A DNA stretch of 64,000 bases. Source: Desulfohalobiaceae bacterium. Its GTDB lineage: Bacteria; Desulfobacterota; Desulfovibrionia; Desulfovibrionales; Desulfothermaceae. Of the stretch, positions 37,414-42,921 are shown piece after piece. Within the stretch, counting starts at the first letter, position 1. Each line of letters begins with the position of its first letter. A model generated the notes under the pieces. It was not told the origin of the DNA and made no database searches. It saw nothing but the letters and a program-made list of their open reading frames with translations. The translations under genes and the position numbers were made by a program. The stretch lies in assembly GCA_027013815.1 (NCBI GenBank), contig JALWFY010000073.1, positions 62,001 through 126,000 of the forward strand, read 5' to 3'.

Positions 37414-37442
37414 AATCCGTCTTATTTTCTAGGGAGTTGCTA
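37414..37442. repeat. 29-nt direct repeat, copy 1
   Basis: AATCCgTcTTATTTTCTAGGGAGTTGCTA; 27/29 identical to 40552-40580. Confidence 0.8.
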
Positions 37443-37461: not shown

Positions 37462-37593
37462 CAATTAAGGTTGCAAGTCACCTTTAACTTGAGGACTATT
37501 CCAATCAAGTATAGAAAGCTTATAAATGCAGATATAAATGGTGCATTGAATATGTTAAGAAAAAGGATTCTCTACTTAAAGAAATCGAAGAGA
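37462..37593 (+). pseudogene. C-terminal remnant of an IS200/IS605-family TnpB (OrfB)
   Basis: Frame +37462 reads ...IPIKYRKLINADINGALNMLRKRILYLKKSKR*, matching the conserved TnpB C-terminal (INAD-N-A-NIL-RK) signature; no upstream coding portion present. Confidence 0.7.
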
Positions 37594-37628
37594 TAGAAAA
37601 CAAAAGACTTGTGTCCTAGCCTGTAATG

Positions 37629-37793: not shown

Positions 37794-40217
37794 CTACTTA
37801 AATTTTTTTATTATCTTCAAAAGTTCATAAAATGGAACAGGTTTGCTAAAATAATAGCCTTGGACCTGGGCGCATCCAAGTTCTCTTAAAATAGTTAATT
37901 GTTCTCTAGTCTCAACTCCTTCAGCACACACATCTATATTTAGAGCAGAGCACATATCTATTATTGCCTTAACAATTTCTTTCTCTTTGGACCCCTTTTT
38001 TAAAGGAGAAATAAATGATTTATCTATTTTTACCAGATCAATTGGAAGGGTATCTAAATAATAAAGAGAAGAATATCCAGTCCCAAAATCATCCATACAG
38101 ATCAAAATTCCTCTTTTTGCCAATTTTTTCAAGACTTCTGAAAGCAACTTTTCATTTTTCATAAGCATAGTTTCAGTAATTTCTACCTGAAATAGCTCAA
38201 TGGGTATATTATATATACTGGAAAGCTCCATAAAGTGTTTTACCCAGTCAATATGTTGTAAACACAATACAGAGAGATTAATAGCACAGGGAATCTTTAA
38301 CGTGGGAAAACTCTTTGTTAATTCTTGTAAATGAGAAGCAATCTGATTTGCCATGGATTTACTTATCTCAATTATAATGCCTGTTTCTTCAGCAAGTTCA
38401 ATAAACTTCACAGGTGGAATAACTTCACCGTCTATAGCAATCCACCTTGCTAATGCTTCCAGACCAAGAATTTTTCCTGTTTTTACGTCAATTTTAGGTT
38501 GATAAAAAGGCACAAATCTTTGTTTATGCACAGCTTCCTTTATTTTTTCAACAGTTTTCAAACGGTTAATTGATCGGTGTAAAATCTCTTTATTAAAATA
38601 AAAATGATTATTAGTGCCAAAACCTCTTGCACTGTTTAGTGCAGTTTCTGCATATCTTAAAAGATCTTTGGGGTCCTTTGAGTCATCGGGGTAAATACTA
38701 ATACCAAAAGAACTGGTAACATCTATTTTAGTATCTTTTAGAACTAGATTATTCATCTTATCTTTAATCTTTTTTATTAATTGCTCAATTTCCAAAAATT
38801 TATTAAATTCAAAAATAAGGGCAAATGTATCCTCTCCTATTCTGGCAACATTATTTTTCCCCACAATCTCAACCAAAATATCACTTTTTTTCTTTAATAT
38901 TTCATCTCCTATATTATATGAAAAGGCTTCATTTATCTGTTTGAAATTATCAATGTCAATTAAGATAACAGAAAATTTTAGATTGTTTTTTGATTCAATT
39001 TTTCCCTTTATCTTACTTAGAAAATATTCTCTGTTCATAAGACCAGTTAGTGGATCAAAAAAACGGTAAAAAAACTGTTCTCCTTCAATCTTTTTTTGTT
39101 TTGTAAGGTCATAAAAGATTGATATAAAGTTTGTAATTTTATTTTTTTCATTTTTAACAGCTTGAATTCTGAGTATTTCAGGATATACTTCACCACTTTT
39201 TCTTCTATTCCATATCTCTCCTTCCCAGAAGCCCTTTGCTAAAATATTTTCCCACATTTTTTCATAAAATTCCTTGGGATGCCTATCAGATTTTAATATA
39301 CGGGGATTTTGCCCCACTACTTCTTCTTTGGAATATCCAGTAATTTTTGTAAATGCAGGATTAACTTCAATAATATTTGCATCCTTATCAGTTATTACAA
39401 TCCCCTCATTTGCCTTTTTACATAACATATCACAAAGTTGTATCTTATAAGACATAAATCGCTTTTCTGTCATGTCCTGAATTATACCAACTAAATAAGG
39501 TTTATTTTTTCCCTCAAAAGATGTAACTATATGTTTAAAATATCTTTTCTTCTTTTTAAAAATCCTTTCCCATCTATAAAATGGCATTCCTCGAGATAAA
39601 TCTTCAACCTTTTTCTTCAAAAGAAGTTTTTCTTGTTCAGGAAATAATTCAAGGAAGTTATTTATACTGATCTTTATCTTTTTTTCTAGATATAATAAAT
39701 CCCGAAATCCATCTGATACTTCCACATACTGAGATCCCACTTCCCAATACCAACTTCCCATTTTTGCAACATATTCTGCTTGAGACAAAAATTTATTTTT
39801 GAGTTCAAGGTAATTTTTATTTTTTGTTGCTTCAGTTATATCTCTGCCAAAGATCACAATCCCTTTTGCATCTCCTTGAAGACTAAATACTGGGATCCTT
39901 CTAATTTTAAAATAATACATTTGTCCCTTGGGATCTTGTAAAGAGACAAACTCAATTAAAACTTCTCTATCTTTCATGCAAATCTCATCCTGTTTTATGG
40001 AGTGTTTTAGGAAATCGTTTAAATGAGGAGATAATGTTATCAATTGGTCATCACTCTTCCCATATATTTTTTCTTTTTCCAATCCATAAATGCGAGACAC
40101 AGAATTGTTTACTTTTAAATAGTTACCAGATTGGTCTTTAAAAATTACCAAGTTAGGACAATTTTCTATCAACACATCAAAAAAAAGTAATTGTTCATTT
40201 AAATTCATTTGATCCAT
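37794..40217 (-). CDS. PAS-PAS-(degenerate GGDEF)-EAL cyclic-di-GMP phosphodiesterase-like protein
   Basis: PAS segments; GGDEF position reads RIGEDTFAL; EAL motifs GLEALARW, EITETMLM, DDFGTGYSSL, KIDKSFI, CAEGVET. Confidence 0.92.
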   Translation of the reverse strand: MDQMNLNEQLLFFDVLIENCPNLVIFKDQSGNYLKVNNSVSRIYGLEKEKIYGKSDDQLITLSPHLNDFLKHSIKQDEICMKDREVLIEFVSLQDPKGQMYYFKIRRIPVFSLQGDAKGIVIFGRDITEATKNKNYLELKNKFLSQAEYVAKMGSWYWEVGSQYVEVSDGFRDLLYLEKKIKISINNFLELFPEQEKLLLKKKVEDLSRGMPFYRWERIFKKKKRYFKHIVTSFEGKNKPYLVGIIQDMTEKRFMSYKIQLCDMLCKKANEGIVITDKDANIIEVNPAFTKITGYSKEEVVGQNPRILKSDRHPKEFYEKMWENILAKGFWEGEIWNRRKSGEVYPEILRIQAVKNEKNKITNFISIFYDLTKQKKIEGEQFFYRFFDPLTGLMNREYFLSKIKGKIESKNNLKFSVILIDIDNFKQINEAFSYNIGDEILKKKSDILVEIVGKNNVARIGEDTFALIFEFNKFLEIEQLIKKIKDKMNNLVLKDTKIDVTSSFGISIYPDDSKDPKDLLRYAETALNSARGFGTNNHFYFNKEILHRSINRLKTVEKIKEAVHKQRFVPFYQPKIDVKTGKILGLEALARWIAIDGEVIPPVKFIELAEETGIIIEISKSMANQIASHLQELTKSFPTLKIPCAINLSVLCLQHIDWVKHFMELSSIYNIPIELFQVEITETMLMKNEKLLSEVLKKLAKRGILICMDDFGTGYSSLYYLDTLPIDLVKIDKSFISPLKKGSKEKEIVKAIIDMCSALNIDVCAEGVETREQLTILRELGCAQVQGYYFSKPVPFYELLKIIKKFK

Positions 40218-40551: not shown

Positions 40552-40580
40552 AATCCATTTTATTTTCTAGGGAGTTGCTA
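40552..40580. repeat. 29-nt direct repeat, copy 2
   Basis: AATCCaTtTTATTTTCTAGGGAGTTGCTA; 27/29 identical to 37414-37442. Confidence 0.8.
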
Positions 40581-40636
40581 TTTCTCATACTATTACTTGA
40601 ATTTGAGACAAGATTAGATTAGTATAAAATTTAATA

Positions 40637-41170
40637 TTGTGTAAAAAATTTGGGAGTTTTGGTATGAAAGAAGAATTTGAGACCCATTTTCAAAAGGTTA
40701 TCCAATTAGAAGGAGGATTTAGACTCATACAAAACCCAAATGAAAAGGCCAAGACTTATGCAGGGATATACAGGATTTCCCACCCCAATTGGGAGGGATG
40801 GGAGTTTATTGACAGGGACGAGAGTCCACCAACTGAAATGGTAAGGAAATTTTATTATGAAAACTATTATAAAAGATTAGAAGAGATAAAGGACCCTCAA
40901 GTCCGTTTTATTATATTTGAATTTGCGGTTAATGCAGGATTAAAAAAGGCAATAAAGCTAGCACAAGCAGTTGTCGGCACAAGTCCTGATGGTATAATTG
41001 GACCAAAAACCATATCTGCATTAAATTCTACCCTACCACTTGATTTTATTAAAAGCTATCTCCTTGCCAGGATAAAACATTACCTGGATTTGGCAAATAA
41101 GGACCCCAAAAGGTATGGAATATATTTAAGGGGATGGTTAAATAGGACATTCAGAGGAGTAATGTTATGA
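40637..41170 (+). CDS. Phage-type endolysin, GH108-like with peptidoglycan-binding-like C-terminus
   Basis: HFQKVIQLEGGF catalytic-region pattern; FAVNAGLKKAIKLAQAVVGTSPDGIIGPKTISALN. Confidence 0.82.
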   Translation: MCKKFGSFGMKEEFETHFQKVIQLEGGFRLIQNPNEKAKTYAGIYRISHPNWEGWEFIDRDESPPTEMVRKFYYENYYKRLEEIKDPQVRFIIFEFAVNAGLKKAIKLAQAVVGTSPDGIIGPKTISALNSTLPLDFIKSYLLARIKHYLDLANKDPKRYGIYLRGWLNRTFRGVML

Positions 41171-41598
41171 ATTTACTGGGAATAGGAACCATTATTGACA
41201 CAGTGGGCAAGATAGCAGACGACTTGATCACCACCGATGAGGAGAGGCTTCAACTCTATATAGAAAAGACCAAGATAGAGGCAGGACTTATAGAGAAGAT
41301 TCATAACACCAATATAGAAGAAGCAAGACATCCATCAATCTTTGTGGCTGGCTGGAGACCAGCAATAGGATGGATAGGGGCCATATGCATTGGATATCAA
41401 TTTATATTATATCCCCTGCTTACCTGGATGTGGACATTACTACAAGCATGGGGCAAGATACCACCTGGCACTAATCCTCCCCCTGTACTCAAGTCAGACA
41501 TGCTTTGGACTATAATCACTGGCATGTTGGGGATTGCAGGACTTAGGACCTATGACAAGATAAAAAAAGTAGATACAAAAAAATTAAAAACTAAATAA
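41167..41598 (+). CDS. 3TM holin (GTA-type holin family)
   Basis: RHPSIFVAGWRPAIGWIGAICIGYQFILYPLLTWMW...LWTIITGMLGIAGLRTYDKIKKV; ATGA overlap with endolysin. Confidence 0.82.
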   Translation: MNLLGIGTIIDTVGKIADDLITTDEERLQLYIEKTKIEAGLIEKIHNTNIEEARHPSIFVAGWRPAIGWIGAICIGYQFILYPLLTWMWTLLQAWGKIPPGTNPPPVLKSDMLWTIITGMLGIAGLRTYDKIKKVDTKKLKTK

Positions 41599-41627: not shown

Positions 41628-42254
41628 ATGTTTTGTCCAAAATGTAAATACACCACTTTTGATTATTTTAAAAGATGTCCTAGATGTGATTATGATTGGA
41701 GTGAAATAAAAAAACAACTAGGTTTGGACTGGATTGCTGAACCAGAAGTAGTGGAACCAGAGGTCTATGAAGAAACAATTAATAATAGCAAAGTAGACAT
41801 TTTAGAGCCCCAAAAAAAACAGGCCCCAGAGATAGAGCCCCCTGTTATAGACAATGAAAATAATCACGAGGTAGGGGATGAAACAACTCCGCAGGAGCCA
41901 TCGTCAAACATAGAAAAAGAAATAGACGAGGAAATTGAGTTAGATAAAGACTTTTTTATTGAAATTGAAAAAGGAGTTGAAAAAGAAATCGTTTTACAAG
42001 AAAAGGATGATTTACCTACACAAGAGATATCTGCAGAGGTAGAACCCATTTCTCTAGACACAAAAGAAGAGGTCGGTGCAACTAAATCGCCATCTGAAAA
42101 TGAACAGGGCAAGATAGAACAGGATGTATGGGATATTGAATTCGAGGACCTGGTTTTAGAAGACAATGACACCCAAAAGGTAGATGAAGAAAAGAAAGAT
42201 GATATTGACATGTTATTATTTGTAGAAGAAGACAAGGACAAGAAAAACAAATAA
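41628..42254 (+). CDS. Zinc-ribbon protein with long acidic low-complexity tail
   Basis: MFCPKCKYTTFDYFKRCPRCDYDW followed by Glu/Asp-rich sequence. Confidence 0.7.
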   Translation: MFCPKCKYTTFDYFKRCPRCDYDWSEIKKQLGLDWIAEPEVVEPEVYEETINNSKVDILEPQKKQAPEIEPPVIDNENNHEVGDETTPQEPSSNIEKEIDEEIELDKDFFIEIEKGVEKEIVLQEKDDLPTQEISAEVEPISLDTKEEVGATKSPSENEQGKIEQDVWDIEFEDLVLEDNDTQKVDEEKKDDIDMLLFVEEDKDKKNK

Positions 42255-42264
42255 ATTAATTTAA

Positions 42265-42921
42265 ATGGATATAGAAGAAATAGCAACTATTATTGTCAAA
42301 GAATTAAGTTCCTATCCCAAATTAAAAGAAGGTAAATTTCTATCCCAAATAAATATATTGGCTAGATATATATTGGAATTGTGTAAATGGGGAAAAAAGA
42401 CAAACCTTGTTGGCAAAAATTCTCCTTTGGAAATCTTTAGATCTCTTATTATAGATTCCCTTTTCCTAGTTCAATTAATAGAGGAAATAGGCGTAAACCA
42501 ATATCAAAGTGGTTTTTTAGACATAGGTGCAGGGGCAGGCATCCCTGGAATACCTTTTAGGATATTTTATGAAAACGGACCTTATCTTATGGTAGAGCCT
42601 AGAAAAAAAAGGCATGTATTTATTAACCTTATGATCAAATATTTAAATCTAAGATACACCCAGGTATATCCAGGACCAATAGAACAGATAAAGACAAAAG
42701 GATTTGATATTTGCCTGTCTAGGGCATTTTGCAGATGGGATAAATTCCTCGATGTTTCTTATCCCTTAACAAGACCCAATGGACATGTGATTGTGTTTTC
42801 AAATAAAAAATGGGATCAAAAGGAGCCTCGTAATTACAGATTTGTATTAGAATACCCATATGGACGCAAATCACAAACTCCTCGTTATTTCTGGGTATTT
42901 TCAAAAAAAGCTCCTAATTGA
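42265..42921 (+). CDS. rsmG: 16S rRNA (guanine527-N7)-methyltransferase RsmG
   Basis: WGKKTNLVG...IIDSLFLVQL...FLDIGAGAGIPGIPFRI...VEPRKKRHVFI. Confidence 0.88.
   Translation: MDIEEIATIIVKELSSYPKLKEGKFLSQINILARYILELCKWGKKTNLVGKNSPLEIFRSLIIDSLFLVQLIEEIGVNQYQSGFLDIGAGAGIPGIPFRIFYENGPYLMVEPRKKRHVFINLMIKYLNLRYTQVYPGPIEQIKTKGFDICLSRAFCRWDKFLDVSYPLTRPNGHVIVFSNKKWDQKEPRNYRFVLEYPYGRKSQTPRYFWVFSKKAPN

Follow-up and report, generated by a model that had tools for sequence, protein, structure and literature searches.

The window analysed here is a stretch of 64,000 nucleotides (C73:62001-126000) from a draft genome of 2.59 Mb in 219 contigs, which is estimated to be 95% complete and 0.15% contaminated. 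It contains a pair of genes resembling a phage lysis cassette, with the following features in and around it:

37794-40217, minus strand: PAS-GGDEF-EAL protein, divergent neighbour (Pfam, motif scan)
40603-40630, plus strand: candidate sigma-70-like cassette promoter, TTGAGA-16-TAAAAT, 10/12 (pattern match only)
40664-41170, plus strand: GH108 endolysin (N-acetylmuramidase-type) with C-terminal PG_binding_3, 168 aa (Pfam, PHROG, alignment)
41167-41598, plus strand: 3TM-type holin, 143 aa (PF11351, phrog_3427, conserved W-R-P motif)
41628-42254, plus strand: Zn-ribbon protein (orthologues in 8 of 10 other family genomes)
42265-42921, plus strand: rsmG, 16S rRNA methyltransferase (PF02527, 2.7e-30)

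The endolysin matched two Pfam families above their cut-offs, GH108 (PF05838, E = 7e-9, residues 9-92) and PG_binding_3 (PF09374, 1e-13), as well as the PHROG endolysin family phrog_315 (6.5e-25). It also matched PDB chains titled secretion activator protein (7dnp, 3.6e-9). The ATG at 40664, with GGGAG upstream, is the preferred start; the listed start at 40637 is a TTG nine codons earlier. No signal peptide was evident in the endolysin. E16, the EGG-motif glutamate, was invariant in an alignment of six proteins, as were 20 further columns, and we take this glutamate to be the catalytic residue established for GH108.

The holin matched PF11351 (GTA_holin_3TM, 2e-15) and phrog_3427 (holin, 1.3e-25). 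Its hydropathy profile shows one strong membrane segment (residues ~57-92) and two weak ones (the N-terminus and 107-125), so '3TM' is best read as a family label. The same applies to 'GTA' in the family name, which we rejected as evidence for a gene transfer agent (GTA), since members of this family are widespread in ordinary phages. The two co-oriented genes overlap by ATGA, each is preceded by a plausible ribosome-binding site, and both proteins keep every residue that is invariant among their aligned relatives. They are the sole members of their families in the genome. Judged from these features, the pair appears to be complete with both genes intact, and its adjacency, orientation and catalytic residue correspond to those of a phage holin-endolysin lysis cassette. 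This agrees with a sequence-only reading of the same DNA, which had described a GH108-like endolysin with a PG-binding-like C-terminus, overlapping by ATGA with a 3TM GTA-type holin. The promoter scan gave 17 sites, against 12 expected in shuffles.

The surroundings of the cassette are chromosomal, with housekeeping genes on both sides. One flank consists of plsX-rpmF-yceD and the divergent PAS-GGDEF-EAL gene, the other of the Zn-ribbon gene, rsmG, tRNA-Leu and dprA (several of these names were assigned by eye). Capsid, tail, terminase and portal genes are absent from the window ORFs, in line with the earlier description of a stand-alone cassette, and no structural, packaging or integration genes adjoin the pair, as they would in a prophage. 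The Zn-ribbon gene starts 29 nt past the holin and may therefore share its transcript. On the other side, the PAS-GGDEF-EAL protein has a degenerate GGDEF motif (GEDTF) and an intact EAL motif, so it is probably a phosphodiesterase; the idea that this c-di-GMP gene regulates the cassette found no support.

Comparison with related genomes places the cassette at a rearrangement breakpoint. The Zn-ribbon gene is present in 9 of 11 family genomes, source genome included, and lies 3' of the orthologue of the 48764-50509 gene in every relative in which the gene order was read; in G003 and G001 it is followed by the topA-flagellar block or moeA. In the source genome it stands between the holin gene, which it follows directly, and rsmG. 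Relatives have a different yceD flank, only the source genome joins the yceD/EAL flank to the rsmG flank, and none of the relatives examined has an endolysin or holin near rsmG. Hence, the order endolysin-holin-Zn-ribbon-rsmG, proposed earlier as something to look for in relatives, is unique to the source genome. Together with the relocated Zn-ribbon gene, this unique flank order marks the cassette as the site of a breakpoint. The acidic Zn-ribbon protein itself is conserved across the family in its first 37 residues and diverges in the remainder; in relatives its gene adjoins that of a conserved 581-aa protein.

The 'mobile-element debris' mentioned in the sequence-only reading corresponds to a TnpB-like remnant and a 21-bp direct repeat around the EAL gene. 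The remnant resembles the C-terminus of an IS200/IS605-type TnpB (LINADINGALNMLRKRI, window ~37480-37600, judged by eye), while the exact repeat (37422-37442 and 40560-40580) flanks the PAS-GGDEF-EAL gene. The repeat suggests a joint insertion or duplication of the EAL gene and the TnpB-like remnant; repeat and remnant are further signs of local rearrangement. No att repeats or phage debris bracket the cassette.

A gene order found only in the source genome, in a draft of 219 contigs, might also result from a phage fragment misjoined into a host contig during assembly. We regard such an artefact as very improbable. Host genes lie only 447 bp and 29 bp from the cassette, the estimated contamination is low, and a foreign composition of the cassette was not distinctive: its GC content (0.365 and 0.407) and codon scores are near those of the host (window GC 0.36).

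The distribution of the pair and its closest relatives point to phages. All three congeners lack the endolysin and holin genes (one of these genomes is only 43% complete), and within the family the pair recurs only in G005, where it is part of a prophage. The window cassette is thus confined to one genome among those searched. A viral scan with the single holin protein gave no relatives and a scan with a holin alignment succeeded; holin homologues in phage records share at most 54% identity. The same two genes occur on viral contig L026 (IMG/VR), likewise overlapping by ATGA and with an endolysin that is 49% identical; an internal virion protein is encoded a few genes further on. In locus L091, a prophage of a Sulfurospirillum genome, the genes for terminase, portal, endolysin, holin and minor head protein follow one another. 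A maximum-likelihood analysis of 62 endolysin-holin pairs, concatenated, grouped the window pair with L026 and L091 at a bootstrap of 100%, which identifies the cassette as being of phage type. None of the relatives of the window pair is close enough to be usable for dN/dS.

Another reading is that the cassette would act in trans as the lysis module of a GTA or of a prophage on the same contig. Such an arrangement has a precedent: lysis genes apart from the structural cluster are a GTA trait that a lone pair fits, and the GTA of R. capsulatus uses an unlinked endolysin/holin pair (PMC8601537). The absence of any second GH108 or PF11351 gene in the genome also speaks for this option. A phage tail module does indeed occur on the same contig, beyond the window end (C73:129925-141116; the wider span C73:129158-141116 corresponds to L020:3158-15116) and ~26 kb from the cassette. 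It lies beyond topA, mobB, moeA and tRNA-Thr(CGT) and runs off the contig end. Its content includes phrog_6128, 4408, 9600, 6079 and 5076 as well as CBM5/12 and DUF2341/laminin-type proteins, and a 1198-aa protein of the module has its nearest counterparts in phages S1, AS1 and Lodos. Phage Lodos has a lysozyme gene after the phrog_5076 position, and the contig-end prophage stops at its phrog_5076 gene without such a lysis gene, which could leave a role for the cassette.

However, the relatives of this prophage also place their lysis genes elsewhere, between head and tail in phage S1 and next to the terminase in phage AS1. Moreover, the TerL (PF03237, PF03354, PF05876), portal (PF04860) and HK97 capsid (PF05065) families have no match in the 95%-complete genome, and the bin therefore shows no sign of a GTA or of the remaining part of the contig-end prophage, although a GTA might lie in the missing part. 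This argues against the earlier suggestion of a GTA lysis module acting in trans. The cassette as part of the contig-end prophage, whose own lysis genes were not seen, was likewise not supported: it groups with other phage types. Housekeeping genes fill the ~26 kb separating the two. The sequence-only reading had considered a complete prophage or GTA cluster just outside the window; what lies there is a tail module unrelated to the cassette. Overall, we consider a trans-acting role improbable.

The explanation that we favour for the window copy, over a domesticated switch, a trans-acting module or an artefact, is that a phage lysis module, to all appearances intact, would have been captured and left isolated on the chromosome, as a fairly recent remnant that has not decayed. 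We hold this to be moderately probable. The source of the pair would have been a phage or prophage, and it would have ended up at the breakpoint beside the Zn-ribbon and rsmG genes, with the other phage genes gone. The 447-bp gap upstream contained no recognisable fragments of phage genes, so a donor prophage would have left no trace there, which counts against a captured remnant. Most likely, the cassette has no present role or an incidental one. If expressed, the intact pair could still lyse or permeabilise the cell. Going by what is known of these families, the holin would permeabilise the inner membrane by forming lesions, and the leaderless GH108 muramidase would pass through these lesions and cut the peptidoglycan. 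The cassette has no spanin (the holin is separated from the next gene by 29 nt, and no embedded ORF has a lipobox), and rupture of the outer membrane may therefore be incomplete.

Whether such pairs also occur on their own in other bacteria was addressed by scanning 84,980 species genomes with the holin alignment, which gave 251 confirmed loci; the best 80 of these 251 were analysed. A same-family endolysin lies beside the holin in 42 of the best 80 loci, and the holin starts between -15 and +20 nt from the endolysin stop in 36 of them. Among the 29 paired loci with at least 3 kb on both sides, five are evident prophages (L078, L082, L087, L090 and L091; three were judged by eye). A classifier based on BLAST to viral loci missed L078, L082 and L087, and neighbours were therefore checked against PHROGs and Pfam. 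Most other well-flanked loci lie among housekeeping genes, giving ~20 lone pairs with non-phage neighbours, for instance beside succinyl-CoA ligase (L072), tex (L073), MATE and ROK genes (L085), glnS (L093), rmuC and radA (L101) and recQ (L107). Near 23 lone loci, no structural or packaging PHROGs were among the matches listed in two pooled scans of their neighbours, one list being complete and the other giving 25 of 49 families. Judging from record titles, lone pairs occur in at least six phyla (Pseudomonadota, Calditrichota, Marinimicrobiota, Nitrospirota, Nitrospinota and the Bacteroidota/Ignavibacteria group), and many of their genomes are metagenome bins.

Both genes had a dN/dS of 0.05-0.15 in four pairs of related genomes, two of which (L098/L101 and L104/L112) also had conserved flanks. 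Low dN/dS in a housekeeping context indicates that lone pairs are likely retained for a bacterial purpose, and domesticated lysis cassettes of the GH108-3TM-holin kind therefore probably exist. No third gene is common to the lone cassettes beyond the pair itself. Several of them have conspicuous neighbours. In the gammaproteobacterial loci L104 (3769-8429) and L112 (3808-8429), with conserved synteny and dN/dS of ~0.06-0.08, the pair comes right after Ser/Thr kinase and Sel1-caspase-domain genes; this kinase-caspase-endolysin-holin arrangement is possibly a programmed-death module. Fused PP2C-kinase proteins and MFS transporters are encoded within ~7 kb of the pair in three other gammaproteobacterial loci (L108, L110, L111). 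In Marinibactrum (L084:8001-10728), a second, diverged holin homologue (32% identical) lies 2.3 kb downstream of the lone pair. Pleionea sediminis (L075:3926-7475) has, ahead of its pair, several related hypothetical genes with a VGRGVAEAQQALD-type motif that might represent cargo or particle genes.

Selection maintains lone pairs in other genomes, and the window cassette may likewise have a lasting role. The host might switch the pair on in some cells, releasing proteins, vesicles or DNA. An intact pair with ribosome-binding sites and possibly its own promoter would suit such a programmed-lysis or release device, as would the ~20 lone pairs and their purifying selection. Yet the window copy falls outside the lone-pair clades and groups with phages, congeners lack it, and no spanin, obvious cargo gene or regulator adjoins it. 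Domestication, which the sequence-only reading had offered as an option, is thus backed by other genomes and not demonstrated for the window cassette, where we find it conceivable and rather doubtful. We rate as unlikely the broader proposal that this cassette would be an instance of a widespread class of free-standing GH108-3TM-holin pairs, repeatedly derived from phages and kept as lysis or release switches in many phyla, here with its own promoter and perhaps co-transcribed with the Zn-ribbon gene and rsmG.

Phage lysis genes have been put to new use by bacteria in exporting toxins and in releasing gene transfer agents. To our knowledge, such reuse is known only from a few cultivated models. 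Here, the same two-gene unit stands alone in chromosomes of at least six phyla and is sometimes kept in place between species, which makes these recurring, preserved pairs candidates for built-in lysis switches. If they act as such, public goods, vesicles and environmental DNA would have in them a source that is common and open to testing. The copy in the window makes a weaker case, being a phage-like capture that has so far been seen in one genome. We found no general survey of such lone pairs in the literature searched, which was chiefly open-access, and as far as this search goes the free-standing class is undescribed.

Among known systems, R. capsulatus encodes the endolysin/holin pair of its GTA (rcc00555/rcc00556) away from the structural cluster (PMC8601537, PMC3423380), and the window cassette resembles it in standing apart from any such cluster. 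In contrast to the window genome, from which the tested terminase, portal and capsid families are absent, R. capsulatus does possess a GTA structural cluster. Type 10 secretion in Serratia, Salmonella and Yersinia entomophaga relies on a holin and a peptidoglycan hydrolase outside a prophage (PMC10109510, PMC10847048, PMC9527704). The window cassette, for which the sequence-only reading had offered a type 10-like system as an option, shares this trait but differs in having no spanin, adjacent cargo or known regulator. The GH108-3TM cassettes of phages (L026, prophage L091 and the Manatee Spring podovirus MW202665) combine these two families in the order seen in the window, and in most cases the genes overlap or adjoin. 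Theirs, however, lie among terminase, portal or virion genes, whereas the window cassette does not. Lone pairs such as L072, L073, L092, L098/L101 and L104/L112 consist of the same two genes without phage neighbours, as in the window, yet they belong to other clades, and some keep their synteny between species and evolve under purifying selection.
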